Positions 20,467-38,271 of a stretch of DNA of 38,365 nucleotides are shown one piece after another. The stretch comes from Coriobacteriales bacterium (GTDB lineage: Bacteria > Actinomycetota > Coriobacteriia > Coriobacteriales > UMGS124): the NCBI GenBank assembly GCA_017515595.1, contig JAFWFL010000108.1, positions 1 through 38,365 on the forward strand, given 5' to 3'. A program made the position numbers and the translations under genes. Within the stretch, counting starts at the first letter, position 1. Each line of letters starts with the position of its first letter. The notes under the pieces are model-generated. The model did no database searches, was not told where the DNA came from, and was given only the letters and a program-made list of their open reading frames with translations.

Positions 20467-23400
20467 TTAAATACTCACCGTGTGGTACGTAGTTCGCACA
20501 TCGTACTTCACATCCACCTGCAGCGCCTCGAAGTGCCGCCTGGCGCACCGAATCTTGGTCTTTTCAACATCACTCACGCGAATGTTGTTGTTCCCGCCGC
20601 CCTTGGTTTCCACAACAAAGTAAACGCGCCGCTCACCATCCTCCTCGACCACGTAAGCCCAGTCCGGGTTGTAGCTTCCTAGAGGAGTATCGATCTTGAA
20701 CTTGCTCGGCAACTTGGCGAAGACGCGCACCTCCTCTGCCAGGTCAAGCTCCACCGCAAATGGCTGCTCTACGGTTGACGAATCGTATACGACGTAGTTG
20801 TACAAGCTCTTTCCGCTGCTCGGCATCCAGGCGTTCTGCCCCAGGTACGCCTTCAACTCGCCAGGGTCGAGATCCTCCATGGTGTACCAGTCCTCGTCGG
20901 GCAGCTTCGTGTACTTGATGCCCTCCGCGATGGCCTCGCTCTTGGCCTTCTCGATCTTCTGCGCCACCTGCGCAAGGAACGTCGCCGGGTCTACCTCGAA
21001 CTCGTCGTAGCGCCCGCATTCCTCCAAGATGCGCTTGAGCGTAGAACGGGTCAGCCCCACGGCGTCCTGCAGCTCGGCAATTGGGTCGGGCAGATCGTAC
21101 ACACGAGCCTCACCCGTCTTTACAATTGATGTGCCGGTGGCCGTCGCGTACACACCCGCGTCACCCACGGCAAGGTCGGCACGCGTCGAAAGCACCTCGA
21201 GCGGCTTCACCTTCGGCATGCCTTTGACGAGCGCCACGGCATCGGCAATAAGCTTTTCCGAGTCCACGTCCACCTCGAAGCGCGTGCGCCTGCGTATGCG
21301 ATCCCACAGCTCCTGGAACGCGGGGTCATCGCTGACGTCCTTACGTAGCTCTACCTCGACTTCAGCAGCCTTGTCGCGAATCTGCAGCTTCTGAGCTTTA
21401 TGCAGGATGATATCCTCCACCTGCGAATGCGCAGCCTCAAGACCTGTTGGCATCTCCACGCAGCCCTTCTCGGCGGCTTCCTTCAGCTCGGGCGTAATGT
21501 TGCCCTTCTTGTCCACAAGCCCTTTGGACATGAAGCTCTGGTACACCTCAGCGCTCTGCTCGAAGCCAAGCTTCATCTCCTGGCCGTCTGGTAGCTCAAT
21601 GGTCACCTTTGTGAACGACTCGGGCGTGAGCACACCAAACTTCAACCCATCCTTCTCAAGCTCGGTTTGAAGCCCACTTGCGAAGACGTCGTAACTCTCA
21701 TTTGCGATGACGGTCAGTACGTTGGCGTCCTCGTCGTAGCAACGCTCGCCGGTCTGGTCGACGCACAGACGCAAGCCCCTGCCCACTTTCTGACGCTTGG
21801 TCATAGTGTCCTTGGTCTCCACCAACGTGCATATCTGGAATACGTTGGGATTATCCCAGCCCTCTTTAAGCGCCGAGTGAGACCAGATGAACTGGATACG
21901 CTTCTTGGCTCGAGTCTCTTCATCGTCCGTTGCAGAGGGGAACGATATAAGCGTCTCCTTTTCGCGCATGATGGTTTCAAACGTGTTGATATCGGCCTCG
22001 CTGCTGGCACTCGAGCTCGTGTTTTTGATGTGGCCCTTGCCATCCTGCGCGAAGTAGCCCGAATGCACAGCCGACGCATCAATATCGAGCGAAAGCCCTG
22101 CCGCCGCGTATTTCTTCTGCCAGCGGGAGCTGTTTACAGCATCGGAATACTCCCGCTCAAACATCTCTGCGTACTCTCCATTGCGCACCGGGTCATACAG
22201 GCGATACTTCTCAACCTTGTCGATGAAGAAGAGACTAAGTACCTTGATACCACGAGGCGTGAGCTCTAGCTGCCGTTGCAGGTGGTCCTCGATGGTGCGG
22301 CGGATCTGCGCACGTTTCACATCCTCGACGGACACATCGCCTACGGACTGGCCTTTTTCAAGGTATTCGCCGTTGGTGAACTCGATCCATTCATCGCCCT
22401 CGGCTGCCGATATGTTCGAAACGATCCATCCGGCCTCGTAGTCGCTGTTCTCGCCGCTCACTGTCTGATCATAAAGATTGCTTCCGGTACGCACGGTCAC
22501 GGACTTGCGCTTTTGGCTTCCGTCGCTTTGCCGCACATCAATCGTGAGCTTCGCAGTGATGGAACTTGGCGTGTTGCCCATCTTGGTCGATTCCAGCCGT
22601 ACGAAAGCGCCGTTTAGGTCGGCTTGTGCGAGAACAGAATCCACGCAAATGCCCTTCACGAGTCCTTGCTGAAAAGCGTCCACCGGCGTAAGGCGATACA
22701 CTTTGTTGTAACTCTCCTTGTGAGTTGCAGAGTAACGCAGCACGAAAAGCGGATTTAGACTGCGGATGGCGGCTTTCGCTTTGATACTGTTGTCGACGCT
22801 CTGCGGCTCGTCGATGATGACTATGGGGTTGCATGCCGCCACTACCTCGCGCGGGCTGCGGCCTCCGATAAGCCGCTCGCTCGGGCGGTGGAAGAGGGAG
22901 CTGCTCTCAGCATTGCCCTCGTCGGAGTAGTCGCGGTTGAACGCCTGGATGTTGATGATCATCACCTGGATGGAGCTGCTGGTGGCGAAGTTGCCAACCG
23001 GCCCCATGTCCTTGCTGTCGTAGACGAACACGTCCATCGGCGCGTTGTCGTAGAGCGTGGCGAAGTGCTTGCGCGTGCTCTGGAAGCTCTTCAGCACGCC
23101 CTCGCGGATGGCCACGCTCGGCACCACGATCAGGAACTTGGTGATTCCGTACTTCTTGTTCAGCTCGAAGATGGTGCGTGTGTACACGTAGGTCTTTCCC
23201 GTGCCAGTCTCCATCTCGATGGTAAAGTCGCGCAGCTTCCCGTCCGTCATCACGGCGGTGGCGGGAAGCGAGTTCTCCTCCTGGATGTCGTGCAGGTTCT
23301 CAAGCAGCTGGTTTGCCGAAAGGCGCAGTCCGTTGGCGTGTCCGATAGAGAGTACCTGCCCCTCCATCAGCGTTCCCGCAGCGCCCGTCTCGGCCGTGAA

Positions 23401-23505
23401 CTCGCTTTTAAGGAACTCCTGCCCCCGGAACAGTTCGGTGATGGCCTCGACGGCCTCTACTTGATGCTTCTGGTCCGATGAGTACTTGAGCTCGATGGTC
23501 GCCAT
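20467..23505 (-). CDS. res: Type III restriction enzyme, Res subunit (helicase-nuclease)
   Basis: 1012 residues. Walker A is METGTGKT (98-105), Walker B IIDEPQ (about 231-235), followed by LRYSATHKE (motif III-like) and the C-terminal helicase part SHSALKEGWDNPNVFQICTL and RQKVGRGLRLCVD. The end has a PD-(D/E)XK nuclease: YNPDWAYVV then YFVVETKG, where Asp and Glu-x-Lys would bind metal. Type III Res works in complex with Mod and cuts after ATP-driven communication between two sites. The gene begins 2 bp after the stop of mod. The length is normal for the family. No frameshift or loss of key residues is seen, so it is probably active. Confidence 0.93.
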   Translation of the reverse strand: MATIELKYSSDQKHQVEAVEAITELFRGQEFLKSEFTAETGAAGTLMEGQVLSIGHANGLRLSANQLLENLHDIQEENSLPATAVMTDGKLRDFTIEMETGTGKTYVYTRTIFELNKKYGITKFLIVVPSVAIREGVLKSFQSTRKHFATLYDNAPMDVFVYDSKDMGPVGNFATSSSIQVMIINIQAFNRDYSDEGNAESSSLFHRPSERLIGGRSPREVVAACNPIVIIDEPQSVDNSIKAKAAIRSLNPLFVLRYSATHKESYNKVYRLTPVDAFQQGLVKGICVDSVLAQADLNGAFVRLESTKMGNTPSSITAKLTIDVRQSDGSQKRKSVTVRTGSNLYDQTVSGENSDYEAGWIVSNISAAEGDEWIEFTNGEYLEKGQSVGDVSVEDVKRAQIRRTIEDHLQRQLELTPRGIKVLSLFFIDKVEKYRLYDPVRNGEYAEMFEREYSDAVNSSRWQKKYAAAGLSLDIDASAVHSGYFAQDGKGHIKNTSSSASSEADINTFETIMREKETLISFPSATDDEETRAKKRIQFIWSHSALKEGWDNPNVFQICTLVETKDTMTKRQKVGRGLRLCVDQTGERCYDEDANVLTVIANESYDVFASGLQTELEKDGLKFGVLTPESFTKVTIELPDGQEMKLGFEQSAEVYQSFMSKGLVDKKGNITPELKEAAEKGCVEMPTGLEAAHSQVEDIILHKAQKLQIRDKAAEVEVELRKDVSDDPAFQELWDRIRRRTRFEVDVDSEKLIADAVALVKGMPKVKPLEVLSTRADLAVGDAGVYATATGTSIVKTGEARVYDLPDPIAELQDAVGLTRSTLKRILEECGRYDEFEVDPATFLAQVAQKIEKAKSEAIAEGIKYTKLPDEDWYTMEDLDPGELKAYLGQNAWMPSSGKSLYNYVVYDSSTVEQPFAVELDLAEEVRVFAKLPSKFKIDTPLGSYNPDWAYVVEEDGERRVYFVVETKGGGNNNIRVSDVEKTKIRCARRHFEALQVDVKYDVRTTYHTVSI

Positions 23506-23507
23506 GG

Positions 23508-25328
23508 CTACACCGTCCTCAGCTCTACCTCGCGGCCAGTTTTCTCCTCGACGCGCTTGAACGCCTGTACGGCGTTGAGCTTGGTCGTATCATCGAGGTT
23601 GCGGTCGAGCATGAGCACGCGCCTGGGCTCCATGTCGGCGATGGCGTCGAGCACCTGCATGTTGAGGCCAGGCTCAAGGCAGCAGATGAGCTCACCGAAG
23701 GCCACCGAGTAGCACGAGTACCCGGCAGCATCCACCTTCTCGATGGGTAAGGTGAGCTCCAGGCCCCACTTGAGCATCATCTCGAAGATGATGTCCTCGT
23801 CAGTGCGGTCGGGCTTTACCACGTCGAGAAGGAGCTCGCCAGGTTTCGGGCGTTCAATGCCACTCTCATCGAGCTTGAGGACTCGGAAGCCAATATCGGG
23901 AATTTGCTTGGGTTCTTCGCCAAGTCGGAGTTGCCTATTCGCTTCTTCAACTTCAGCAGCAATCTTAGCTCCTGCGCGACGAATGCGTTCCGCACCCATA
24001 TCAAATAGGTTATTTCCATCATCTGTTGGTTCGGGGAGCTGGACTGCGATGTATCTGCGATGGCTATCCTCTCGTGCGTTAATGCTCATTACAGCTTCGG
24101 CGCTGCTGCCTGACCCAGCAAAAAAGTCCATTATTACGCTGTCGCTCTGTGAACCAATTTGCATGATGTAATCGATGAGTGCGGTTGGCTTTGGAGTGCT
24201 GAATAGGCTTGTGACAGCCACTTCTGGGAAAAGTGATTTGAGTTCGTATTTTGCGCGCCTAGTGTGACCAGTCTTTTCGAAGTCTGTCCACAGTGTAGAC
24301 GGTGGCAATCCTTCCATATCCGCCAAGTAAGTACGACGAATTACTCTTGTTTCGTCCTCAGAGAATCGTAATTCGCCCGTTTTAAATTTCTCATCCATGC
24401 TTTCGCGAGACCAACGCCACCCATTTGCTGGGTGCTTAATGATTTTGCCTGAGGGAGTTGTTATATCGAATTGAAGATTAGGTCGAAGTCCTGGGTTGTT
24501 TACCGGGTTACCGTCGAACCATGGCCCCCTTGGATCATTATCGGGATTCCGAAAATGCTTTCTCTTTTCGGGATCGTTGATGAAATTTGGCTTCCAAGAA
24601 GGATCGCGCGAATATACAAGGATGTCATTGAAATCTTCGGAGAATGTCAGCGCATTGTTATTGCTATTATCGCTGGATTGCCAAGCAACATGCGCTATAT
24701 AGCACGACTCTCCAAAAATCTCGTCACATATTTTTTTAAGGTTGGCCACCTCAACATGATCTATTGAAATGAAGAGTACTCCATCAGTTGAAAGGAGCTC
24801 GCGTGCAAGGCGTAGTCTCGGATAAATCATTGAGCACCAATTTGCATGGTATCTCCCACTAGCATCCGAGTTCGACTGTGACTCAGAAGAGGTTTGAGCG
24901 CGATAATTTGCGACCGTATCAGCAAAAGTGTCTTTATAGATAAAATCATGCCCTGTGTTATACGGTGGGTCGATAAAAATTAGATCGACGCGCCCGTGGT
25001 ATGAATGTTGAAGTAGCTTTAGTACCTCAAGATTGTCGCCCTCGATGTAAAGGTTTTCAGTCTCGTCCCAGTTCACGCTCTCGTCAGGAGCAGGTCGCAG
25101 TGTAGCCGTGCTAGGAGCCTGGCTCTGTCGGATGGCGTCGGCTTTACCAGGCCATGTGAAGGCGTAACGCTCGGTTCCTTCGTCCACCTCGTCGCCCAGT
25201 ACTAGACGGAGCTTGTCAAAGTCGATGCCCCCCTCAGTTGCGATCTCCGGCAGCAGTTGTTTAAGCTGCTCGATGCGTTCAGCCACCAGATCGGCAGACG
25301 CAAGATTCATCTTCTTGAACTCAGCCAT
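23508..25328 (-). CDS. mod: Type III DNA methyltransferase, Mod subunit
   Basis: 606 residues. DPPYNTG (120-126) is the catalytic motif IV and FAGSGSS (from 403) the SAM-binding motif I, so the order is that of beta-class amino-methyltransferases; adenine N6 methylation is expected. The target-recognition part lies between them (about 150-390). That part of the gene has visibly lower G+C than both ends, suggesting exchange of the recognition domain. The gene overlaps the DUF4391 gene by 8 bases and is 2 bp from res. The product should both protect host DNA and give the site specificity for Res. Confidence 0.93.
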   Translation of the reverse strand: MAEFKKMNLASADLVAERIEQLKQLLPEIATEGGIDFDKLRLVLGDEVDEGTERYAFTWPGKADAIRQSQAPSTATLRPAPDESVNWDETENLYIEGDNLEVLKLLQHSYHGRVDLIFIDPPYNTGHDFIYKDTFADTVANYRAQTSSESQSNSDASGRYHANWCSMIYPRLRLARELLSTDGVLFISIDHVEVANLKKICDEIFGESCYIAHVAWQSSDNSNNNALTFSEDFNDILVYSRDPSWKPNFINDPEKRKHFRNPDNDPRGPWFDGNPVNNPGLRPNLQFDITTPSGKIIKHPANGWRWSRESMDEKFKTGELRFSEDETRVIRRTYLADMEGLPPSTLWTDFEKTGHTRRAKYELKSLFPEVAVTSLFSTPKPTALIDYIMQIGSQSDSVIMDFFAGSGSSAEAVMSINAREDSHRRYIAVQLPEPTDDGNNLFDMGAERIRRAGAKIAAEVEEANRQLRLGEEPKQIPDIGFRVLKLDESGIERPKPGELLLDVVKPDRTDEDIIFEMMLKWGLELTLPIEKVDAAGYSCYSVAFGELICCLEPGLNMQVLDAIADMEPRRVLMLDRNLDDTTKLNAVQAFKRVEEKTGREVELRTV

Positions 25329-26094
25329 GGCATAGCTCCTTTATCTCGGTCGCGAACCTGTCATGCTCGCGTTCCTTCCTCTTCAACGCCATACGCAGCC
25401 GTGACGACTCGGCAAGGGTCGCCTCTTTATCACGATACTGCGACTGTAGGACATTAATCTCCGATTGTGTGTCCCTCAGATGGACCAGAAGCGCCATCAA
25501 TTGCGCCGTATCGGCATCTTTGCAATGTGGATACTCGCCGATGCTGGCGATAGCTGCCGCCTTGGCCGTGCGGTCGCAGAGCGCACAAACGTAGGCAAGC
25601 AGGTCGGATTGTGGTAGCGCCCCATGTCGGATGTCTTCCAGGTAGTCGGCAAACGCTTGCTGGCTCGGGTCGAAGAGCCGCGCAGACTCGATGCGCTCCA
25701 CGACAACAGCGCCCTTCTCCGCATGGCTCTTGCGCTTGAGAGACACGGAGACGCCCACCTTGCCGCCCGGCTCTTCGAAGAGCAGCACGATCGGGTTGGG
25801 GAACACCTTGTGGAGCGCGGATGCAAGCTCGCCGAACCCTCCGGATTTTACCAATTCGCAGCGCAGGTAAATCACGCTGCCTATCTCATACTCAGAATTT
25901 AAGACGGGAGCGATTCGTGCCGTCGCACGCTGGATGGTGGCGATATGCGTCAGGCGCGAGTACTGCTTGAGCAGCTTCTCCTCGGTCTTGGTGAGACCGC
26001 CCTGGGCGATGAGAACCGTCTTGGGAATGGGCTTGCCCCCGGCGAGCGTGGCGTTCGGAAGGTTTAGCGTCGCGATCCAGTCCATTCCAGTCAC
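25321..26094 (-). CDS. DUF4391 family protein
   Basis: 257 residues. The pattern (IPKTVLIAQGGLTKTEEKLL, then ARIAPVLNSEYEIGSVIYLRCEL, and VVVERIESARLF) matches my recollection of DUF4391 proteins, which are commonly encoded between a PLD/SNF2-type helicase and a type III mod gene. The C-terminal 60 residues are charged and heptad-like (SEINVLQSQYRDKEATLAES), probably a coiled coil. Function is unknown; given its fixed position it may link the helicase to the modification-restriction complex. It overlaps the upstream gene by 4 bases (ATGA type) and the downstream gene by 8. Met4 is an alternative start. Confidence 0.75.
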   Translation of the reverse strand: MTGMDWIATLNLPNATLAGGKPIPKTVLIAQGGLTKTEEKLLKQYSRLTHIATIQRATARIAPVLNSEYEIGSVIYLRCELVKSGGFGELASALHKVFPNPIVLLFEEPGGKVGVSVSLKRKSHAEKGAVVVERIESARLFDPSQQAFADYLEDIRHGALPQSDLLAYVCALCDRTAKAAAIASIGEYPHCKDADTAQLMALLVHLRDTQSEINVLQSQYRDKEATLAESSRLRMALKRKEREHDRFATEIKELCHG

Positions 26095-29000
26095 CTCAGC
26101 ACCACGAAGCTCACGAGCGAGTAGTCGTCGAATGCGAGAGTCGTGCCGGTGCCGACTTCACCCAAACTGAAGAGCGATTCCATGCCCTTCTGCGCCTGTA
26201 CACCCGAAACCTGGCTCACGGCGGCGTCGAGCAGCTCGGTGTAGCCGCCCATGCGCGTTCCGTCTCGCGTCTCGCGGTTGAACTGCTGGCACAGCTCCAT
26301 GACGGGTTCCGTTATTCCTGCGCAAGCGGCGCGGATGATGTCGAGGGCGGTTTTCGGGTTGGTGTGGGTGCCTCGTACCTCTCCAGCCTGCGTCACGTAG
26401 ATCAGGTGGAACGGCCAGGTCGGGTTGCCGTCCTTCGGGTTGGCTTCCTCGTCGTTTGCCTTCAGGCAGAATACGACGCCAGGCTCGACGCTGTCCTGCA
26501 GGGTGTCCGGTATCTCGGCTACGGCATGCAGACCGCAGGGACTTCCCTCCAATAGGCAGGGGTGGGCTTTGGCGTAACGCTCCAGCTCCACGCGGAAGTC
26601 GTCGTAGGCCAGGTCGGTGATGGAAATGCCGCCCGATATGTCCTCCAGGTCCATGACCTCGCGCTGTAGCTGCTCGAGCTGGCTTCTGCGGTACTTCAGG
26701 TCGTTCATCTCGTCGGCAGCCTTGCCCTCGAGCACGTTCTCCTCGCCGGTGGCCGACGTGTCCAGCAATACCATGCGCCCCTTCACACGTCCTTCGAGCT
26801 GGATGTACTCGTCAAGCTCGATGTCTGGCCAGAAGTTCACGAGCTGCACGCACGTGTTGTCGGAACCCAGACGGTCCACGCGGCCGAACCGCTGGATGAT
26901 TCGCACCGGGTTCCAGTGGATGTCGTAGTTCACCAGGCAGTCGCAGTCCTGCAGGTTCTGGCCCTCGGATATGCAGTCGGTTGCGAACACGACGTCAATC
27001 TCGCCCTGTTTGCGCTCACGTTCGGATATCTCCTTGCTCTTGGGCGAGAACCGTCCCAACACGGCGTCGAAGGTAGTGCGCTTGAGCTTTATGGTGGCGG
27101 ACGTGCCGGCCGCTCCAGTCACGAGGGCGCTCTCCATGCCGTACGTCTTCTTGAGGTGGGGCGATAGCTGATCGTAAAGGTAGCGGACCGTATCGGCGAA
27201 CGCGCTGAAGATGAGCAGCTTGCGGTTGTCGGGGTTGTACGGGTGGGCGACCTTCTGGTCGATGAAGCGACGAAGCTCGGCCAGCTTCTCGTCGCGCTCG
27301 GGCGTCACCTCGTTGGCGTAGTAGAGAAGCTCCTCGAGCGTGCGGATGTCGTATTCCAGCTCCTGGCGCACGCGTATCGCGTCCACGTCGCGAAGGTCTA
27401 CGCGCACCTTGCCGCCGGCCTCGAACTCCTCGGCGTCGTCATCGTCGTCGAATCCCTCTGCCAGGTCGTCCGCCTCGTAGGTAGCGTTCATGCTCAGGTT
27501 GTCCAGCTGCTCCAGCAGTGTTTTCGCGCCGCCCAGCACGCGCTCCAGGGTGATGCGAAAGCTGTTGATGGAGCTCTCCATGCGCTTAAGCAGGTTCACT
27601 CGCATCAGGTTCGCAACGGCGTGCGTGCGGTTCACCTGGCTCTCGTAGTCATTGCCCCACGTATCGGCGTAGAGAGCCTCGTACTTCTTCTGCTTTCCGG
27701 GCATGACGTAGGACAGCAACTGGTACTGCGCGAAAGACAGCGACGCGATGAGGTCGTTCATGTCGGCGATGCTCGGTAGCTCGTCCTGCGTGTCGAAGCG
27801 TGGGTGCAGCGATATGGGCTTCAACCTCGTCGGGAACGTGGCCTTCTCGTCGCGATAGTACTTCGCGATGTGCTTGCGCGACCGCGCGATGGTTAGGATG
27901 TCGAGAAGCTTGAAGTAGTCGGCGTTCACCATGGCCACGAACCGCTCGGTGGTCCTCGCCTCGTCGGGAAGCTCGCTCCATTCCCCGAACCGCTGCTGGG
28001 CCAGACGGCAGACGGCCGTGATGGAACCGATGCCGTCGGTGTCAGCCAAGTAGGCGTCGTCTCCCTCGGTGATGATCTCTATCTGGTTGCGCAGGTCGAG
28101 CAGCTTGTTATTAACCGGCGTAGCCGATAGCATGAGCACCTTCGTGCGTACACCGGCGCGTATAATGTCCTGCATCAGGCGGTCGTATCGCGAGTGCTGC
28201 GTGCGGTCGGTCGGCTTGTTGCGGAAGTTGTGGCTCTCGTCGATGACGATGAGGTCGTAGTTGCCCCAGCGCAGCGTCTCCAGGTTGATGTCGCCCGAGA
28301 AACCCGTGTAGCGGGAAAGGTCGGTGTGGTTGAGCACGTCGTAGTTCAGCCGGTCGTCCACGAGGGGGTTGCGCTCGTCGTTGCCGGTGTAGAGCGTCCA
28401 GTTCTCGCGAAGGCGCTTCGGGCACAGCACCAGCACGCGGTCGTTTCGCTCCTGGTAGTACTTGATGACGGCCAGTGCCTCGAAGGTCTTGCCCAGGCCA
28501 ACCGAGTCAGCGATGATGCAGCCCTTGTAACGCTCCAGCTTGCGGATGGCTCCCACCACGGCGTCACGCTGGAAGTCGTAGAGTTTGTTCCACACATGGC
28601 TATCGGTGAAGGAAAGCCCCGGCTTGATGGGGTCGGTCGCCTCGATATCGGCCATGAAATCCCTAAAAACGTGATACAGCGTAAGGAAGTACACAAACTC
28701 AGGGGGGTTCTCACGATACAGCGTTACGATTTGTGCAGCAACCTCCTCGGTAACTTCGGTTACCATGGAAGGATTATCCCAGATGCTGTCGAACATAGCC
28801 TTAAGTCCAGCCGCCTCGGAAGAACCCGAATAGGAGCCATATCCGCCCACAACGCCGGCACGACGCTCATATCCCAGCCCTTCCAACGTAAATGGAAGGT
28901 TGAACCCCTGGAAACCATCAGCACTACCATCAGCATGCGAAAGGTGGTACACCGAGCCCGACTGAACTATATTGCACTTGGTTGCTGAGCGGAATGAGGC

Positions 29001-29339
29001 CTTGGATCGCACCCACTCGGCGCACTCGTGTGCCAGTGCTCGTTGGTTTAAGTTGTTTCGAAGTGTTAACTCAAGCCCTGTGCCACCCACACCACGCTCC
29101 CGTGAACGCTGCGATATCACAAATTCGCGTGGATCTTTCAAGTCGGTCATCTGTTGAATAAATGTTGGCTCATCAAAGAGAAAGCGGAGCTCTTGAATGT
29201 GGGAAAGCTCGCTCTTCAACTCGCCGTAAGCGAATACGGTGAAATACGACGAAATTATGGCAAGCCTATCGCCTTCCATAATTGCCGAACGAAGCTTGTC
29301 TCCTAAAGCGTTGACACCCTCGTTAGATAAGAACTCCAT
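26091..29339 (-). CDS. PLD/SNF2-type helicase of a defence operon
   Basis: 1082 residues. The first 200 residues look like a phospholipase D-like domain (GDRLAIISSYFTVFAYGEL, RFLFDEPTF) without a clear HKD. The SNF2-type helicase core follows: ADSVGLGKT (Walker A, Lys284), VIDESHNF (367-370 DESH), LMLSATPVNN, and in the second half KLLIFSAFADTVRYL, ATDCISEGQNLQDC and RIIQRFGRVDRLGS. The last 200 residues have no recognised fold. It probably translocates on or remodels DNA in the restriction system. The first 250 residues' DNA is lower in G+C than the rest. It starts 4 bp after the small leader gene and overlaps the DUF4391 gene by 4 bases. Confidence 0.88.
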   Translation of the reverse strand: MEFLSNEGVNALGDKLRSAIMEGDRLAIISSYFTVFAYGELKSELSHIQELRFLFDEPTFIQQMTDLKDPREFVISQRSRERGVGGTGLELTLRNNLNQRALAHECAEWVRSKASFRSATKCNIVQSGSVYHLSHADGSADGFQGFNLPFTLEGLGYERRAGVVGGYGSYSGSSEAAGLKAMFDSIWDNPSMVTEVTEEVAAQIVTLYRENPPEFVYFLTLYHVFRDFMADIEATDPIKPGLSFTDSHVWNKLYDFQRDAVVGAIRKLERYKGCIIADSVGLGKTFEALAVIKYYQERNDRVLVLCPKRLRENWTLYTGNDERNPLVDDRLNYDVLNHTDLSRYTGFSGDINLETLRWGNYDLIVIDESHNFRNKPTDRTQHSRYDRLMQDIIRAGVRTKVLMLSATPVNNKLLDLRNQIEIITEGDDAYLADTDGIGSITAVCRLAQQRFGEWSELPDEARTTERFVAMVNADYFKLLDILTIARSRKHIAKYYRDEKATFPTRLKPISLHPRFDTQDELPSIADMNDLIASLSFAQYQLLSYVMPGKQKKYEALYADTWGNDYESQVNRTHAVANLMRVNLLKRMESSINSFRITLERVLGGAKTLLEQLDNLSMNATYEADDLAEGFDDDDDAEEFEAGGKVRVDLRDVDAIRVRQELEYDIRTLEELLYYANEVTPERDEKLAELRRFIDQKVAHPYNPDNRKLLIFSAFADTVRYLYDQLSPHLKKTYGMESALVTGAAGTSATIKLKRTTFDAVLGRFSPKSKEISERERKQGEIDVVFATDCISEGQNLQDCDCLVNYDIHWNPVRIIQRFGRVDRLGSDNTCVQLVNFWPDIELDEYIQLEGRVKGRMVLLDTSATGEENVLEGKAADEMNDLKYRRSQLEQLQREVMDLEDISGGISITDLAYDDFRVELERYAKAHPCLLEGSPCGLHAVAEIPDTLQDSVEPGVVFCLKANDEEANPKDGNPTWPFHLIYVTQAGEVRGTHTNPKTALDIIRAACAGITEPVMELCQQFNRETRDGTRMGGYTELLDAAVSQVSGVQAQKGMESLFSLGEVGTGTTLAFDDYSLVSFVVLR

Positions 29340-30230: not shown

Positions 30231-31238
30231 ATGGCTTCTGTCACTCAAAGAATCAAAGAAATAAAACAACCAAGAGGCGGATATTTAAACCTAAAAATGT
30301 TTACCAAGACAGTACTTGGACCGGGTGAAGAGGAGCTAAAACAAACTGATTTCCAATCCGGTCTGACCGGACTAGCTGTTGATTACCTTACGAGATTTAT
30401 GCTCGGAACACCAGTTAAAACTGCATTCAGAATATCCATATTAGGAGCCGAAAGACTCTCTTGGGATAATAATATAAACACAGCAGATACCGTTTCTTTG
30501 CTATTAAAGAATATTAAGGGATTGGATGATAACTCCATTATCTCGGCTTGCAAAATGTGTGGTTATGATACCTGTTTAAGAGCTGGAATTGGAACCTATA
30601 AACCTATTGAAGAGATAGAGCCAGATGATGGCGCTATTGAAAACATAAGGATCATGGTAAATAGAAGCCTGGCGTTTTTTGAACAATATGGCCCTGTCAC
30701 ATGTGTATGTCCAGTTTTCCATGGTGGGTATGCCAAACTTGTTGATTCAGGAGATGGTGATTATCTTACAAAAGATACTATCTGGGACATGAAAGTGTCA
30801 AAAAAACCGCCAAAAAGTAGCGACAGACTGCAAATACTCATGTATTACATATTAGGTAAACACTCATTCAGAATAGAATTCGATACAGTGTACAAGATTG
30901 GCATTTATAATGCTCGCTTGAACACAGTCTATTTACTTGACGTGAACGATATAGACCGTGCAGTAATTCATGAGGTTGAATACGACGTAATCGGATATCA
31001 AACATGTACACACCACAATACAGAGATAGTTACACGGAACACTGCAGCTGATGAATACATTTATGAGCAGTATGTAAATCATATTAAGGAACAACTTAAA
31101 TATCGTAATAATACGCAGTCTGAGGACTTATCTAATGATCAGCCAAACGATGGTCAGATTGTTTCAAAACCAACAAAATCAATATTCAGATCAATATTAG
31201 ACTTCTTTGCAAAAGCTTTTCATTTAACAAAGTTATAG
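30231..31238 (+). CDS. PD-(D/E)XK nuclease-like protein
   Basis: 335 residues. The central block DSGDGDYLTKDTIWDMKVSK (from Asp172) supplies an acidic residue then Asp-x-Lys (Asp186, Lys188), and LQILMYYILG fits the QxxxY helix of RecB-like PD-(D/E)XK enzymes. The N-terminal half is unrecognised; cysteines occur as CKMCGYDTC and CVC. The ATG at 30231 is chosen because AAGGTG precedes it; a TTG start at 30198 is less likely. Codon use is AT-rich compared with the molybdoenzyme island. It is encoded just before the McrBC genes in the same direction, with a 120-bp gap that holds a promoter, so a joint role is possible but not shown. Confidence 0.6.
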   Translation: MASVTQRIKEIKQPRGGYLNLKMFTKTVLGPGEEELKQTDFQSGLTGLAVDYLTRFMLGTPVKTAFRISILGAERLSWDNNINTADTVSLLLKNIKGLDDNSIISACKMCGYDTCLRAGIGTYKPIEEIEPDDGAIENIRIMVNRSLAFFEQYGPVTCVCPVFHGGYAKLVDSGDGDYLTKDTIWDMKVSKKPPKSSDRLQILMYYILGKHSFRIEFDTVYKIGIYNARLNTVYLLDVNDIDRAVIHEVEYDVIGYQTCTHHNTEIVTRNTAADEYIYEQYVNHIKEQLKYRNNTQSEDLSNDQPNDGQIVSKPTKSIFRSILDFFAKAFHLTKL

Positions 31239-31361: not shown

Positions 31362-34300
31362 ATGAGCGAAGACAAATTCAGTTGGATACCAGCTTACGAG
31401 GCGATAGCCACCGTACTACTTGACTATCAAGAGCGACAAGATGATCTTTGCAATCTTGTCGAAAGCATCATTGGCGAACATTTCGAGAAGATGGATCCGC
31501 TCACTTTTTTCTCTGTGTTCAATGGTAAGCGTAAAAACTATGATAAACGCATAGAGGCGGTCAGAGCAATCATTGATTGGTTTGACCTAGATGTAGCCGT
31601 TCCCTCTGATTTTTATGGAATACCGGTCACCAACCCACAACGTTGGCGGTTCTGGGATGGCAAGCCCGACTCCGTCCGTCATAACTGGGAGCTCTTCCGT
31701 ACAGCTTTGGATTATGCGAAAGATAAGGACGCAGTTCGCTTAGAGTTCATGCGTCTCTTTGATGTTGTTCGTTCACAAGGAAACGTTGGCGATGCCAATC
31801 TTACTATGGCGCTCTTTTGGATACGGCCACACATCTTTCTCCCCGTGGACAACAACACGAGAACCTACCTCAGGAACCGTTACGACATCACGGTACCCAT
31901 ACCACTTAATGGCGACGGTTATCTCACGCTGCTCTCAGATGTTCGAGAAAGATCACAGGAAGACTTTGTATACATTTCGCATGCGGCCTGGGAACTTAAC
32001 GGATGGATTCCCGCTCCAAGCGAATACAACCCTGGCATTACTGCTGATGAATGGGAGGAGCTACTTCGAAGACCGGGATTCACATCTGAGAATACTCTCA
32101 CTACATTACGATGCCTCGCCAATCATCCCAAAGGCGTAACCTGCGCGGAGCTGGATGATGACTATGGACGCGGCTCGAACTTCTACAACAGCAACGTTTC
32201 AACATGGGGCGAGGCAGTCTGCAAGAGTACGGGCATCGCGCCTCGCGACATCGAGGGTAGTGGAAAGTATTGGCCCGTACTCTGTGTAGGAAACTGTGTT
32301 GGCAAATCCAGGCATGGAACCTTCGAGTGGCGATTACGTGACGAGCTGGCCGAGGCAGTAAAAAGGCTGGGGAAAGGTGATGTGCCGCTTGTTGAGGTAG
32401 AAGTACGTGAGCGAGTTGCATACAACTCTGACAAACTTGCCCGACTTGTCTCACTTTACAAACAGGACTTCCCCCGTTTCCGTGTGCCGGGTAGCAATGA
32501 GGGCGATCAAGAGGTATATAAGTGGGAAAACGCTTGTGCCTACAAAGACAACTGGAACATAGAGGCCAAGGATTTCGCGTCAAACTTACGCGAGGCTTTA
32601 AAACCTGCGTCAACCAGCCCTGGCGCACTCTTGGACAATGGTTTTTCATATCCGTTTGGGCGGCTAAACAAGCTGGTCGAATTCGACCCGGAAGGCATTC
32701 GCAGCGCATTTAAAATACTTTACGATCCAGAACGACCACTGCGCGACGCTTACAATGGATTCGTTGACACGGTAGAGTCTATATTACAGGAGTATAACGA
32801 AACAGCTGAAAAACCAATTGAAAACAGTTATCAGACTCCTTCTGCCGTGAGTGTTTACCTTGCGTTTGAAAAACCCGAACAGTACCACATTTTTAAACCA
32901 ACAGTCGGAACTGCTCTTGCTGAGTGCATCGGCGCAAAGCTGCCTGCCGACAAAGTGGCAAAATTACTCACTTACGAAAAACTTGCTGATGCTGTATTAC
33001 CCCAATTGCTCGCTGACAAAGACCTTGTAGCAATGAGTGATAGTGCGTTGAGTGAGGCACAACTCGATGTCGATCCTGCACATCACTTGATGCTTGAGGA
33101 TATTGCCTACTATGCATCGCGATATCTCAAATCGTGGCACACTGATTGGGAAGAGTTACTTTCTGGCAAACCGGCAGAACCTGGTAATGAGATAATGAGT
33201 GAGAGTGTTACTTACCCCAAGAATATGATTTTATACGGACCACCGGGTACCGGCAAGACCTACCGTACTCGTGCGTATGCCGTTGCCATCTGCGATGGCC
33301 GCCGTGTCGAAGACGTTCTGGAGGCTATGAAGAATCCTGATGGATACGCTGAAGTATCTGAGCGATATGACCAACTTGTCGCCCAAGGACGAGTGGGTTT
33401 TACAACATTTCATCAGTCATATGGCTACGAAGAATTTATCGAGGGACTGCGGCCTGAGTACGATGAAGATAAGGGCGTAGTTACCTATCCTCTACGCAAA
33501 GGTGCTTTTCGTGATTTCTGCGAGGCTGCTGAGGATGTAATAGCAATTGCATCAGCCGAAGAAGGTGTACCGCGTTTTCCGGGTAACCCGCGCCCTCGTG
33601 TGTGGAAAATGGGTCTTAAAACCGGTGAAATCACAAATTTGTTGGAGTGTTGTCGCAACGAAGGAACGCTGCGTATGGGATGGGACAGCATTACTCCGGA
33701 TGAGGTTGATGATTCCAAAGATATATCAGACCAAAACAAGAGAGCCATAAATGCATTCCAAGAGGAGATGCAGCCCGGCGACTTTGTTGTAATCCCAGGT
33801 GCCGTGAGCAGTCGATACGATGTTGCCGTGGTAACCGGCGATTTCGAATGGGACGAGGACTTGCCAGGTGCTAGACGTAAGAGAACAGCTCAGTGGCTTG
33901 ACGGAATAAGCAAGAGCGAATTTCTGCCTCTCAATGATGGAAAGGCCTTGACGCTACAGACTGTTTATGAGCTAACGCGCGTGAGTCCATCAAGGCTGCT
34001 TGAAGCAATGGGCATGAGAGTCGAGGAAAAGACCACTAAACCCTATGTCTTTATTATCGACGAAATCAACAGAGGCAATGTTTCTAAGATTTTTGGAGAG
34101 TTGATTACCCTGCTTGAGCCAAGTAAACGAAAAGGCGCTCCCGAAGAGACGCTTGCGCGACTTCCGTATTCTGGAGAGATGTTTGGAGTACCAGATAACG
34201 TTTACATACTTGGTACCATGAATACTGCTGATCGCTCTATAGCGCTTATGGATACGGCTTTACGCAGACGCTTCGAATTCATAGAGATCATGCCAGAATC

Positions 34301-34697
34301 AAAATTACTCTCAGATATCAATGTTGAAGGAATTGATGTTGCTCGAATGCTCGAAGTAATGAACGCTCGTATTGAGTTGCTTTATGACCGCGAACACACC
34401 CTGGGCCATGCTTATCTAATGGATTTAGTGAAAGAATCTTCTGTGGAACGGCTTGCCAGAGTGTTCGAAACAAGACTCATACCGCTTCTGCAGGAATACT
34501 TCTTCGATGACTACGCCAAAATACGCTCTATTTTGGGAGCCGCTGCAGACCTCTTCATCGAGCAGCGTGAGGCTAACAATGTATTTTGGGGAGATGACGC
34601 TGCCGAATACGATCGTCTACGCTCCTACCGCATACTACAAGCACCTAGAGATGCCGAGGCGTACATAAATATTTATAAGATGGGTCGGGAGGACTAA
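31362..34697 (+). CDS. mcrB: McrB-type AAA+ restriction NTPase with a nested EVE-like domain
   Basis: 1111 residues. The AAA+ core has Walker A GPPGTGKT (626-633), the McrB-typical TTFHQSYGYEEFIEGLRP, Walker B VFIIDEINRGN (from 896), MNTADRS (953-959) and LRRRFEF. Between Walker A and B, at about 746-860, lies an extra domain beginning RVWKMGLKTGE, with LRMGWDSI, MQPGDFVVIPGA, VAVVTGDFEW and TAQWLDGI; this looks like a PUA/EVE-type reader of modified bases found in other restriction proteins. The N-terminal 600 residues include a probable DNA-recognition part (WIRPHIFLPVDNNTRTYL; GEAVCKSTGI). McrB homologues drive translocation by GTP or ATP hydrolysis together with McrC. The start at 31362 is chosen over 31344 because GGTG lies 7 bases before it. 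The stop is 4 bp before mcrC. Confidence 0.88.
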   Translation: MSEDKFSWIPAYEAIATVLLDYQERQDDLCNLVESIIGEHFEKMDPLTFFSVFNGKRKNYDKRIEAVRAIIDWFDLDVAVPSDFYGIPVTNPQRWRFWDGKPDSVRHNWELFRTALDYAKDKDAVRLEFMRLFDVVRSQGNVGDANLTMALFWIRPHIFLPVDNNTRTYLRNRYDITVPIPLNGDGYLTLLSDVRERSQEDFVYISHAAWELNGWIPAPSEYNPGITADEWEELLRRPGFTSENTLTTLRCLANHPKGVTCAELDDDYGRGSNFYNSNVSTWGEAVCKSTGIAPRDIEGSGKYWPVLCVGNCVGKSRHGTFEWRLRDELAEAVKRLGKGDVPLVEVEVRERVAYNSDKLARLVSLYKQDFPRFRVPGSNEGDQEVYKWENACAYKDNWNIEAKDFASNLREALKPASTSPGALLDNGFSYPFGRLNKLVEFDPEGIRSAFKILYDPERPLRDAYNGFVDTVESILQEYNETAEKPIENSYQTPSAVSVYLAFEKPEQYHIFKPTVGTALAECIGAKLPADKVAKLLTYEKLADAVLPQLLADKDLVAMSDSALSEAQLDVDPAHHLMLEDIAYYASRYLKSWHTDWEELLSGKPAEPGNEIMSESVTYPKNMILYGPPGTGKTYRTRAYAVAICDGRRVEDVLEAMKNPDGYAEVSERYDQLVAQGRVGFTTFHQSYGYEEFIEGLRPEYDEDKGVVTYPLRKGAFRDFCEAAEDVIAIASAEEGVPRFPGNPRPRVWKMGLKTGEITNLLECCRNEGTLRMGWDSITPDEVDDSKDISDQNKRAINAFQEEMQPGDFVVIPGAVSSRYDVAVVTGDFEWDEDLPGARRKRTAQWLDGISKSEFLPLNDGKALTLQTVYELTRVSPSRLLEAMGMRVEEKTTKPYVFIIDEINRGNVSKIFGELITLLEPSKRKGAPEETLARLPYSGEMFGVPDNVYILGTMNTADRSIALMDTALRRRFEFIEIMPESKLLSDINVEGIDVARMLEVMNARIELLYDREHTLGHAYLMDLVKESSVERLARVFETRLIPLLQEYFFDDYAKIRSILGAAADLFIEQREANNVFWGDDAAEYDRLRSYRILQAPRDAEAYINIYKMGRED

Positions 34698-34701
34698 GAA
34701 T

Positions 34702-36012
34702 ATGCCCGCTACACATATCGTAGTCAGGGAATATGAGTATCTGGTCCCATCGGATATCAAGAAAACGAATTGTCACTCACTTGGTGTCGACGAGTTCGCT
34801 GCTCTGCGTGAGTTTACACTTGCCAATCGCGAGGGTGACAGCCCACTCGAACTTATGCATCTCTGTTCACCCAAGGGCATTGGTGAGGCTATTCAGCTGC
34901 AGAACTATGTGGGTGTTGTCGAACTGCATGATGGTTTACAGATTGAAATTTTACCAAAGATTGATATTGCCTCTGATTCAGAAGCAGACAGCCGCGAGAT
35001 TTTTGCCCATATGCTGACAGAACTTGGTACCGATATACCGTTCCACTCGTTTGACAAGACCAGCCTAAACACCGGCGTGGTTCCCCTCTTCGAAGTGTTT
35101 GTGGCGATGTTTCTGGACGAAGTGGTAGATCTTATAAAACACGGTATTCGCTCGGCTTACGTGACGATTGAGTCCGAGGAAAAGTTTGTTCGCGGTAAAA
35201 TTGATTTCACCCGCGAAGCACGCAAGAGTCCTGCTCGCGCAGAGATAACCAATCTGATATATGACGAGCTGCTACCCAATAGACCTGAAAATCGACTGGT
35301 AAAAGCAACTCTCCAATACTTGCGCCACTCTTCGCGGAATAATGACAACATACGCAAAGCGACCCAATTGCTTTCTGCTTTTGAGAATGTGGGTCAATGT
35401 ATCAATATTGACGTTGATTTTTCACGATGCGTTAATGAACGTTCTACCAGGATATATGATAAACTCATAGCATGGTGTCGTGTGTTCTTACATGGCGAGA
35501 GTTTTACGATGTTCAAAGGAGAAAACATCGCTACGGCACTATTGTTTCCCATGGAGAAGGTATTCGAAGACTATGTTGGCAAATTGCTCAAACGCAGAGC
35601 TTTACATGATCCATTTGTAGAACGAGTTGATTTGCAGGCCACCGGCCAGTGGCTTTTTGAAGGCAGGCGCGTAAGCTTGCGGCCTGATATTCTCTGCGAA
35701 TGCACAAATGGGCGGATTATCCTAGACACAAAGTGGAAGCGGGTTTATGGTCCAAGAGATTTGTCCGTCCCCGACATGCATCAAATGTATGCTTACGGGC
35801 AGAGATATCGCGCTGATAGTGAGAACATGCAACATGTAGTGCTTCTCTACCCATGGCATGAAGGAGTATGCTCGGGATTAATGCGTGAAGGCAAACACGT
35901 AAGCTGCGACGGTGTACAGGTTGATATGTTTTTCTTTGACTTATCAAATGCCACACAGAGCACTGACGAACTGCTCAAATTGATGAAACAGCTTGTTGTA
36001 TGCGAGGGATAA
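34702..36012 (+). CDS. mcrC: McrC-type nuclease subunit
   Basis: 436 residues. The N-terminal half has the McrC pattern (IQLQNYVGVVEL, IEILPKIDI, FEVFVAMFLDEV, then KFVRGKIDF); the C-terminal half has the PD-(D/E)XK centre SLRPDILCE (Asp329) and IILDTKWK (Asp342, Lys344), then DMHQMYAYGQRY. McrC binds the McrB ring, stimulates its hydrolysis and cuts DNA with modified cytosine or other modified bases. It is encoded 4 bp after mcrB and 3 bp before the next gene, so the three proteins are made together. All key residues are present. Confidence 0.92.
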   Translation: MPATHIVVREYEYLVPSDIKKTNCHSLGVDEFAALREFTLANREGDSPLELMHLCSPKGIGEAIQLQNYVGVVELHDGLQIEILPKIDIASDSEADSREIFAHMLTELGTDIPFHSFDKTSLNTGVVPLFEVFVAMFLDEVVDLIKHGIRSAYVTIESEEKFVRGKIDFTREARKSPARAEITNLIYDELLPNRPENRLVKATLQYLRHSSRNNDNIRKATQLLSAFENVGQCINIDVDFSRCVNERSTRIYDKLIAWCRVFLHGESFTMFKGENIATALLFPMEKVFEDYVGKLLKRRALHDPFVERVDLQATGQWLFEGRRVSLRPDILCECTNGRIILDTKWKRVYGPRDLSVPDMHQMYAYGQRYRADSENMQHVVLLYPWHEGVCSGLMREGKHVSCDGVQVDMFFFDLSNATQSTDELLKLMKQLVVCEG

Positions 36013-36015
36013 GTT

Positions 36016-36489
36016 ATGATAGAAGAAGATACTGGATGCGAGAAACTGGCCGCAACAATACGTAATTTGTATGGTATTGTGCAGGAGCTCGAAAACGACT
36101 ATCGCGATCAGAACCGGCACTTTACTCTTGATGGTCATCTCATAGGCAGCATCGGCGAAATATATGCAGCAGAGAGATATGGGATTGATCTTTTTATCTC
36201 ATCAACATCCATACACGATGGCACTGCTCCAGACGGCAGGCTTGTACAGATTAAAGCAACACAGCGTAACAGTGTGGCGATAAGCGAAAACCCGAATTAT
36301 CTCATCGTGCTCAAAATCAACGAGATTGGCGAAATTAGTGAGATTTACAACGGTCCCGGCAATCCCGTATGGGAACTCTTCAAAAATCGGGTAAAACCCA
36401 AAAACGGTCAATACCAAGTATCTCTTTCGCGGCTCAGAGCCCTCAACAATGATGTTCACCCAGAAGATAGAATACCTTCATTAGCATAG
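36016..36489 (+). CDS. Small PD-(D/E)XK-like protein (probably DUF6998)
   Basis: 157 residues. The block GSIGEIYAAERYG (Glu48), followed by PDGRLVQIKAT (Asp73, Gln78-Ile-Lys80), has the layout of a minimal PD-(D/E)XK domain, and I associate it with DUF6998. The N-terminus is a short helical region (LAATIRNLYGIVQELENDYR). It starts 3 bp after mcrC, so it is the third gene of the operon. It may be an accessory nuclease or a structural part of the McrBC complex; no function is established. Confidence 0.6.
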   Translation: MIEEDTGCEKLAATIRNLYGIVQELENDYRDQNRHFTLDGHLIGSIGEIYAAERYGIDLFISSTSIHDGTAPDGRLVQIKATQRNSVAISENPNYLIVLKINEIGEISEIYNGPGNPVWELFKNRVKPKNGQYQVSLSRLRALNNDVHPEDRIPSLA

Positions 36490-36723: not shown

Positions 36724-36770
36724 GTGTTAGATTTCTGTAAGGGGTTTACAGAAATCTAACACCCCTTTTG
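36724..36770 (+). terminator. Terminator-like hairpin after the mcrBC operon
   Basis: Perfect 17-bp arms (36724-36740 and 36746-36762, core TTAGATTTCTGTAA) with a GGGGT loop, followed by CCCTTTT. It lies 235 bp after the operon's last stop, and the 36490-36723 stretch before it has no gene. Confidence 0.65.
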
Positions 36771-36842
36771 AAAAACAGAGACGACTCTAAATGTATATGT
36801 TGTCTAGCGCAGGTTTTGGCCTTATGCGCAAAGGAGCAACAT

Positions 36843-37730
36843 ATGGATAATGTAATCACCAATATCGATTTCCAAGATGAGAATATTGCTTCACTAGAAG
36901 CTTTTGGCAAACCAGAAGCGTATGAAAAGCTCAGGCTCACAAATAGCTTCCTATTTTCAAAAGTGATGTTAGATAAAGAGCTCTGCAAAGAAACTATTGA
37001 GACAATCCTTAAGATACCCGTAGATCACATAGACTATCTTGTACATGAAGCAACATTAGATGCGGCAATTAACAGTAAGTCAGTCCGTCTTGACGTCTAT
37101 GTGAAAGATGATAAAGGAACATCCTTTGATCTTGAGATGCAAGTTATCAATAAAGATGACTTACGCAAGCGTTCACGTTACTACCATTCTTTAATTACTA
37201 TTGATCAGCTTGAGAAAAATATCGACTACAGTAAGTTGCCAGATTCATATGTTATCTTTATCTGTAACTTCGATCTCTTTAAAGAAAACAAGCGTATCTA
37301 TTGGTTTGAGAATACTTGTTTAGAAAACCAAGACTTGACACTTAGGGATGGTACGCATACTATCTTTTTAGCGGCATCTGCTCCGCGGCTTGGTAATGAC
37401 ATAAAGCTTGATGGTTTTCTGGATTACCTTTATACCAATAAACCATCTGATGACTTTACCAAACGCTTAGAAGCTGCCGTAATAGAGGCACATCATAACC
37501 AGCGTTGGAAGAAGGAATATATGTTCCTTGAAGATATTAAACGAGAACAATACGAACTGGGCAAAGAAGAAGGCATAAGTATTGGTGAAGAAAAAGGTCG
37601 TGAAGAAGTGCTCAGACTCATCAATAAGCTGCTCTCCCTTGGCCGCAATGATGATATTGCCCGTGTAACTACAGATGAAACTTATCGAAACCATCTTCTT
37701 AAAGAGTATGATCTTACGACAAATGCATAG
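36843..37730 (+). CDS. Rpn-family recombination-promoting nuclease (PDDEXK_2)
   Basis: 295 residues. RLDVYVKDDKG and FDLEMQVINKDDLRKRSRYYHS carry the Asp and Glu-x-Gln of the Rpn/PDDEXK_2 fold; YVIFICNFDLF and the late EYMFLEDIKREQYELGKEEG tail are also typical. Rpn proteins are DNA nucleases, some known to promote RecA-independent recombination or act as phage defence. The C-terminal low-complexity tail (GISIGEEKGREE) is commonly variable in this family, with repeat changes shifting length. The start at 36843 has AAAGGAG upstream. A truncated copy follows directly. Confidence 0.85.
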   Translation: MDNVITNIDFQDENIASLEAFGKPEAYEKLRLTNSFLFSKVMLDKELCKETIETILKIPVDHIDYLVHEATLDAAINSKSVRLDVYVKDDKGTSFDLEMQVINKDDLRKRSRYYHSLITIDQLEKNIDYSKLPDSYVIFICNFDLFKENKRIYWFENTCLENQDLTLRDGTHTIFLAASAPRLGNDIKLDGFLDYLYTNKPSDDFTKRLEAAVIEAHHNQRWKKEYMFLEDIKREQYELGKEEGISIGEEKGREEVLRLINKLLSLGRNDDIARVTTDETYRNHLLKEYDLTTNA

Positions 37731-38271
37731 TGTGGAACAGCTTTGGTGTTCAGCAATATCAAAACTCTGTATACGTCATGAAAACCACTATCTCGATGCT
37801 GGTTTGAGAATACTTGTCTGGAAAACCAAGACTTGACACTTTGTGATGGTACGCATACTATCTTTTTAGCGGCATCTGCTCCGCGGCTTGGTAATGACAT
37901 AAAGCTTGATGGTTTTCTGGATTACATTCTTACCAACAAGCCCTCAGATGACTTTACCAAACGCTTAGAAGTTGCCGTAATAGAGGCACATCATAACCAG
38001 CGTTGGAAGAGGGAATACATGTTCCTTGAAGATATTAAACGAGAACAGTACGAGCTGGGCATAAGCATTGGCGAAGAAAAAGGCCGGAAAGAAGGTCTTA
38101 AAGAAGGCCGTGATGAAGTGCTCAGGCTTATCAATAAGCTGCTCTCACTGGGCCGCAGTGATGATATTGCTCGCGTAGCTACGGATGAGGCTTATCGGGA
38201 CAGCCTTCTTAAAGAGTTCGACCTTTTATCCAACGCTTAGCGTGGACTAGCTTTGATGTGCAGCAATATCA
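37302..38271 (+). repeat. Tandem partial duplication of the Rpn-family gene
   Basis: 37302-37761 and 37800-38271 are near-identical copies covering the 3' half of the gene and about 30 bp after its stop. The second copy differs by scattered substitutions and by a net gain of four codons in the repeated GE/KE-rich tail. The 38 bp between the copies is unlike either. Confidence 0.88.
37800..38240 (+). pseudogene. 5'-truncated copy of the Rpn-family nuclease
   Basis: The frame corresponds to residue 154 onward of the neighbouring Rpn protein, with the catalytic half missing. No in-frame ATG with a good ribosome-binding site exists; upstream ATGs are out of frame, and only TTG/GTG codons within the copy could start translation. 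The frame is open to its stop and the tail is intact (GISIGEEKGRKEGLKEGRDE). In some Rpn genes a small C-terminal product is made from an internal start, so a short protein cannot be fully excluded. Confidence 0.75.

Follow-up and report, generated by a model that had tools for sequence, protein, structure and literature searches.

The mcrBC locus

The window analyzed here, a 38,365-nucleotide stretch of the genome of a Coriobacteriales bacterium (contig JAFWFL010000108.1 of assembly GCA_017515595.1), carries an mcrB gene and, directly downstream, an mcrC gene. The mcrB reading frame extends from 31344 or 31362 to 34697 on the plus strand; position 31362 was taken as the start from the equivalent start in relatives, and residues are numbered from there. 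The features of the pair are as follows.

31362–34697, plus strand: mcrB, the GTPase/motor subunit with its putative nested reader, 1111 aa (Pfam AAA_5, phmmer, Foldseek)
31362–32036, plus strand: N-terminal helical domain, residues 1–225, helical in the full-length model
32043–32396, plus strand: winged-helix-like module, residues 228–345, helices and a β-hairpin in the model
33237–33260, plus strand: Walker A motif GPPGTGKT, residues 626–633 (sequence)
33393–33533, plus strand: β2, helix-2 insert hairpins and helix 2, residues 678–724, the upstream boundary of the insertion (secondary structure of the model, alignment with 6ut3 and 6hz4)
33591–34013, plus strand: predicted nested EVE/YTH-like domain of the PUA superfamily, residues 744–884 (AlphaFold2, Foldseek, hhalign, family of 66 sequences)
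33681–33683, plus strand: Trp774, a candidate modified-base pocket residue in a column that is 94% aromatic across the family (conservation; pocket role by analogy with YTH)
34044–34073, plus strand: β3 and Walker B, ...FIIDEINR, residues 895–904 (IIDEINR, 898–904), the downstream boundary of the insertion (sequence, full-length model)
34221–34232, plus strand: NxxD signature motif, N954-TA-D957 (NTAD; sequence, invariant alignment columns)
34702–36012, plus strand: mcrC, the nuclease partner, 436 aa, with the PD-(D/E)xK residues RPDI...LDTKWK (PF10117, E 1.3e-76)

Both phmmer and Foldseek matched the window McrB to the McrB proteins of E. coli and T. gammatolerans, and the solved structures closest to its motor are those of T. 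gammatolerans McrB (6ut3/6ut5) and E. coli McrB (6hz4). GPPGTGKT, IIDEINR and MNTADRS are all found in its AAA+ core, as are the RRR arginines, and the mcrC gene, which begins 4 bases after mcrB, encodes both DUF2357 and the PD-(D/E)xK residues. Judged by these motifs, the pair is a type IV restriction McrBC, predicted to cleave modified DNA in a GTP-dependent manner. Membership in the CoCoNuTs (as a CnuB protein) was considered and ruled out, as the signature motif is NTAD (NxxD) instead of NxD and a long coiled coil was not recognized in the model.

The mcrBC pair is located in a defense island. On the opposite strand, the region 20467–29339 contains a type III R-M system (Res, 20467–23505; Mod, 23508–25328; plus a DUF4391 protein) as well as a helicase of the HKD+Snf2 type (PADLOC, 7e-117). 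Directly upstream of mcrB (30231–31235, plus strand) lies a gene for a 335-aa protein that has no Pfam match and in which GDGDYLTKDTIWDMKV resembles a PD-(D/E)xK core. Downstream, 4 bases past mcrC, a DUF6998 protein (36016–36489, plus strand; PF22522, 4e-53) with a PD-(D/E)xK-like look (...DGRLVQIKAT) is a possible third component of the operon; beyond it are a PDDEXK_2 gene of the Rpn/transposase type (36768–38240, plus strand) and, after it, a shorter gene that nearly duplicates the C-terminal half of the first (37833–38240).

An insertion between helix 2 and Walker B

The two Walker motifs of the window McrB stand 272 residues apart, as against 69–124 residues, mostly 74–104, in McrBs without an insert, an extra length of ~140–160 residues. 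The structures of E. coli and T. gammatolerans McrB align on either side of this stretch and omit residues ~720–887. The spacing and the alignments confirm the first-pass annotation, which had placed an insert between the two Walker motifs; the residues that it had assigned to the insert (746–860; 33596–33945) cover the barrel described below, and the whole domain spans ~744–884. Since helix 2 of E. coli McrB (...FCQQAKE) passes almost straight into ...KKYIFIIDEINR, the nested stretch is an addition that lies outside the McrB fold. We also found an empty site: L005, which is the neighbor of the insert-carrying L003 on a tree of McrB cores (support 100) and comes from the same family of genomes, has ...HKGVFRRSSDEAQKNPDKPYVLVIDEINR at the place where L003 has ...HDGIFKEICGAA-[insert]-DKPYVLIIDEINR. 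The insertion point is the loop that joins helix 2 to the Walker B strand. A gene fusion or a frame artefact is ruled out by the single open frame and by the dozens of genomes in which this architecture recurs.

In the full-length McrB model (pLDDT 82.9; pTM 0.42, so that the relative placement of domains is unreliable), the first ~600 N-terminal residues are almost all-helical, with the winged-helix-like module at ~228–345. The core continues with β1 (621–626), helix 1, β2 (678–682), the helix-2 hairpins (694–713) and helix 2 (715–724), after which come a linker (727–733, pLDDT <50), the barrel (~744–884), a low point at 888–890 (<50) and β3 from residue 895. No second PUA barrel was seen in this model. 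In P-loop folds, helix 2 is connected to β3 at the sheet edge, on the side away from the nucleotide. Because this connection faces away from the nucleotide, the nested barrel should project outward from the ring rather than into the pore. In TgMcrBC, the exterior of the ring is decorated by density ascribed to N-terminal YTH domains (PMC7680126).

Fold and family of the nested domain

Modeled by AlphaFold2 from an alignment of 59 inserts, the window insert forms a separate barrel (mean pLDDT 89.2, pTM 0.86). Foldseek searches of the PDB with this model returned YTH domains at the top (YTHDF2 with m6A, E 5.9e-5, probability 1.0), followed by the EVE proteins 1zce (E 2.6e-3) and 2gbs, and then by an ASCH-type entry, 3iuw (E 0.04). 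The predicted barrel is PUA-like, as in the EVE/YTH/ASCH superfamily, and its strands and helices follow the EVE order; because the TM-scores to YTH and EVE structures are moderate (0.41–0.55), we limit our claim to membership in the superfamily, without naming a subfamily. A profile of 66 inserts was also compared by hhalign with aligned EVE proteins that PF01878 had retrieved, resulting in a score of 46.7 (probability 92.7%), while 100 column-shuffled EVE alignments scored at most 16.4 and the reversed alignment scored 16.3. The likeness of the insert family to EVE is, at the level of profiles, above chance and independent of the fold prediction.

Searches of Pfam and NCBIfam yielded no significant family for the insert. 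The window insert has no match to Pfam EVE (PF01878) above the cut-off, the best of 14 family members reaching 0.023, and a PDB profile search with the insert returned nothing useful. The PADLOC model of the phage-defense candidate PDC-S02 does match the nested domain (E 5.9e-6), but only at positions 55–126 of its 346. In RefSeq, a homologue with the nested domain on an E. coli plasmid (L290, 2501–4657) is labeled 'DUF8426 domain-containing protein', and a Pfam search gave no DUF8426 match.

The AlphaFold2 fold, the YTH and EVE matches and an EVE profile score above those of the shuffled controls thus bear out the resemblance to a PUA/EVE-type domain that had been noted from the sequence. On the strength of the model, the insert is a separate domain of the PUA superfamily (EVE/YTH type); an ordinary AAA+ extension is ruled out by the fold, the empty site and the phylogenetic spread. 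Aromatic residues dominate several columns of the family (W748, 97%; W774, 94%; W845, 100%; Y869, 91%). Columns 748, 774, 828, 830 and 845 are conserved aromatic positions that may correspond to the 6mA cage of YTH domains, and by analogy with this superfamily the conserved aromatics are candidate base-pocket residues.

The insert profile also matches (i) a domain just ahead of the motor in other McrBs, in several of them ~55–75 residues before Walker A; and (ii) the N-terminus of proteins whose C-terminus resembles an Mrr nuclease, as judged by sequence. Since the module is thus N-terminal in McrBs and in Mrr-like fusions as well, the nested domain belongs to a reader family of type IV enzymes, and a position within the motor is unusual for this family. 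Four of the fusion proteins (L191, L192, L194 and L210), 329–379 aa in length and composed of an EVE-like domain and an Mrr-like C-terminal domain, are likely stand-alone type IV enzymes.

Distribution and exchange

A query comprising core plus insert identified 80 loci from species genomes and 32 from viral contigs, a sample biased to insert carriers, and many of these loci, from Bacillota, Pseudomonadota, Bacteroidota, Melainabacteria and others, share the nested domain. It is also encoded on plasmids of Klebsiella, E. coli, Priestia, Exiguobacterium and Deinococcus (including D. radiodurans R1 MP1). Among the insert-bearing loci with enough sequence, 73 of 74 have McrC downstream.

Frequencies were taken from core-only, insert-free searches alone, using the best 25 Pseudomonadota and the best 30 Bacillota loci by score. 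The best 25 Pseudomonadota McrBs divide into 11 with a nested EVE-like domain, 6 with another insert, 1 with an N-terminal EVE-like domain and 7 with none, and the best 30 Bacillota McrBs into 5, 2, 14 and 9, respectively; no McrB among these loci has an EVE-like domain both nested and N-terminal. Counted per genome over the same best loci, the nested domain occurs in 11 of 299 Pseudomonadota and 5 of 300 Bacillota, and in the window's own order the insert was matched in 5 of 201 sampled genomes. The first-pass annotation had held that McrB recognition domains normally stay at the N-terminus: N-terminal readers do occur in other McrBs, but these counts show that nested placement is no rarity.

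The same loop accommodates, in other McrBs, domains that are unlike the EVE-like family (hhalign scores of 8–10, the level of the shuffled controls). What we call type B inserts, found in 15 loci (including L095, L097, L100, L107, L109, L110, L113, L114, L118, L122, L125 and L136), are a mixed and probably heterogeneous set; type C inserts occur in 2 loci (L074, L111) and, in tandem with an EVE-like domain, in L123 of Pseudomonas fluorescens, where the Walker A–B spacing reaches 393. Six loci (L105, L140–L143, L157) have a second insertion site, which follows the Walker A helix and precedes the FHQS motif. On a quick tree of 136 McrB cores with the insert left out, in which many inner branches are weak, the EVE-like state changes 18 times (at least 9 changes being forced by supported branches), compared with 45.9 when labels are shuffled. 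The insert state is inherited, but losses and replacements are frequent (inside Vibrionaceae and Pseudomonas, for instance), and the helix-2/Walker B loop is an exchange hotspot for unrelated domains.

Function of the nested domain

We consider it quite probable that the nested domain serves a type IV restriction system as its reader of modified bases, one that has moved into the McrB motor. Sequence and prediction point to a barrel that folds independently and is attached by two linkers, with the motor intact and an intact McrC beside it. The nested domain would flip a modified base into its aromatic pocket and read it, 6mA, 5mC and 5hmC being candidates among which we make no choice. An McrB hexamer would display up to six such readers, and modified foreign DNA bound by them would be passed to the GTP-driven McrBC complex and then cut. 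The nested site is best regarded as a second place at which the reader module, N-terminal in other McrBs, can dock.

The first-pass annotation had suggested that a reader inside the motor could couple recognition directly to hydrolysis. Base binding would then move helix 2 or the Walker B strand, thereby switching on GTP hydrolysis or McrC engagement, a mechanism for which it speaks that the barrel is anchored between precisely these two elements, that in TgMcrBC the helix-2 hairpins contact the McrC finger tip (PMC7680126), and that the insert position is kept across several phyla. We nonetheless judge it unlikely: both connections to the core (residues 727–733 and 888–890) are of low confidence and presumably flexible, in close relatives the insert is lost, or unrelated domains take its place, although the core is otherwise intact, and hydrolysis and DNA binding are separable in EcMcrBC. 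Because the connections are flexible, the domain is exchanged with unrelated ones and its loss in relatives is clean, simple tethering of the reader fits better than an obligatory allosteric link, and we favor tethering over the less likely direct gating of hydrolysis by base binding. The wider proposal, that six barrels, each set between Walker B and the helix 2 that contacts McrC, couple recognition to hydrolysis directly and that the loop is a general sensor socket, appears equally doubtful to us. Since the type B and type C inserts have no known reader fold, the loop may not be specific for readers.

The N-terminal modules bear on a different alternative, namely that the nested barrel is a structural or regulatory element with a PUA fold, acting in ring assembly or in binding McrC or another protein, and that the winged-helix-like module does the reading. 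This module is present in the window McrB, where it could be the real reader or may, by analogy with the NTD-wH-NTPase systems (PMC11037411), be a second sensor of DNA or its modification (possibly 6mA); these systems likewise have a winged-helix module before an McrB-like NTPase and McrC as a partner, but the accessible part of that text makes no mention of a nested EVE-like domain. Furthermore, a set of residues in the EVE domain of S. aureus PcdA has been modeled as contacting FtsZ (PMC10602043). Among 118 N-terminal regions, though, the winged-helix module occurs in just 17, while 16 have the first helical domain and 14 a third module; the N-terminal modules are exchanged independently, and the nested domain stays while they vary and recurs with many N-termini. 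Since several nested-domain McrBs have fewer than ~165 residues ahead of Walker A, they leave little room for another reader. The aromatic pocket-type columns are conserved, moreover, and relatives of the domain are fused to Mrr-like nucleases. A purely structural or regulatory role thus seems improbable to us.

As YTH domains that bind m6A RNA are the closest solved folds, the nested domain might also read modified RNA, in an RNA-targeting McrBC variant resembling the predicted CoCoNuTs. We think this very improbable, given the NxxD motif of the window McrB as opposed to the NxD of CoCoNuTs, a full-length model in which no long coiled-coil domain was recognized, and a plain McrC with PD-(D/E)xK residues downstream. 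Reading of modified bases in DNA by a tethered nested domain remains our preferred explanation.

Relation to known systems

E. coli K-12 McrBC has a homologous GTPase and McrC, but its reader is an N-terminal DUF3578 domain and there is no insert at the site used in the window McrB. The McrB of Thermococcus gammatolerans (6UT3–6UT8, 6P0F), whose motor structure is the closest, combines a YTH-type reader with an NxxD motor; its YTH domain is N-terminal, whereas the putative reader of the window McrB is nested. Fusions of EVE domains to McrB are the commonest EVE architecture in defense (Bell, Wolf and Koonin 2020, PMC7641849) and pair a reader of the same superfamily with the McrB GTPase and McrC, but the text is silent on a reader inside the GTPase fold, such as the one that lies here between helix 2 and Walker B. 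Bell et al. (2024) state in one sentence that insertions are frequent in McrB GTPase domains and likely encode specificity domains; the available portion of that article does not describe the fold, site, family or exchange of such an insert, and the helical insert that it reports for Type I-A CoCoNuTs lies at another site, between Walker B and NxD (PMC11090510). Our literature search, which covered material outside supplements and subscription journals, found no work naming the McrB insert, its site or its exchange. That McrB GTPase inserts are likely specificity domains has already been remarked in print; the nested arrangement is widespread and barely described.

Close relatives that lack the insert, or carry another domain in its place, provide natural with/without pairs for the unsettled question of how base reading is passed on to the McrBC motor. 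In a sizeable fraction of McrBs (11 of the 25 best Pseudomonadota loci), a domain scan confined to the N-terminus will overlook what is probably the specificity domain. Finally, the helix-2/Walker B loop is a site where evolution has already exchanged domains, a precedent for insertions that would re-target a type IV enzyme.
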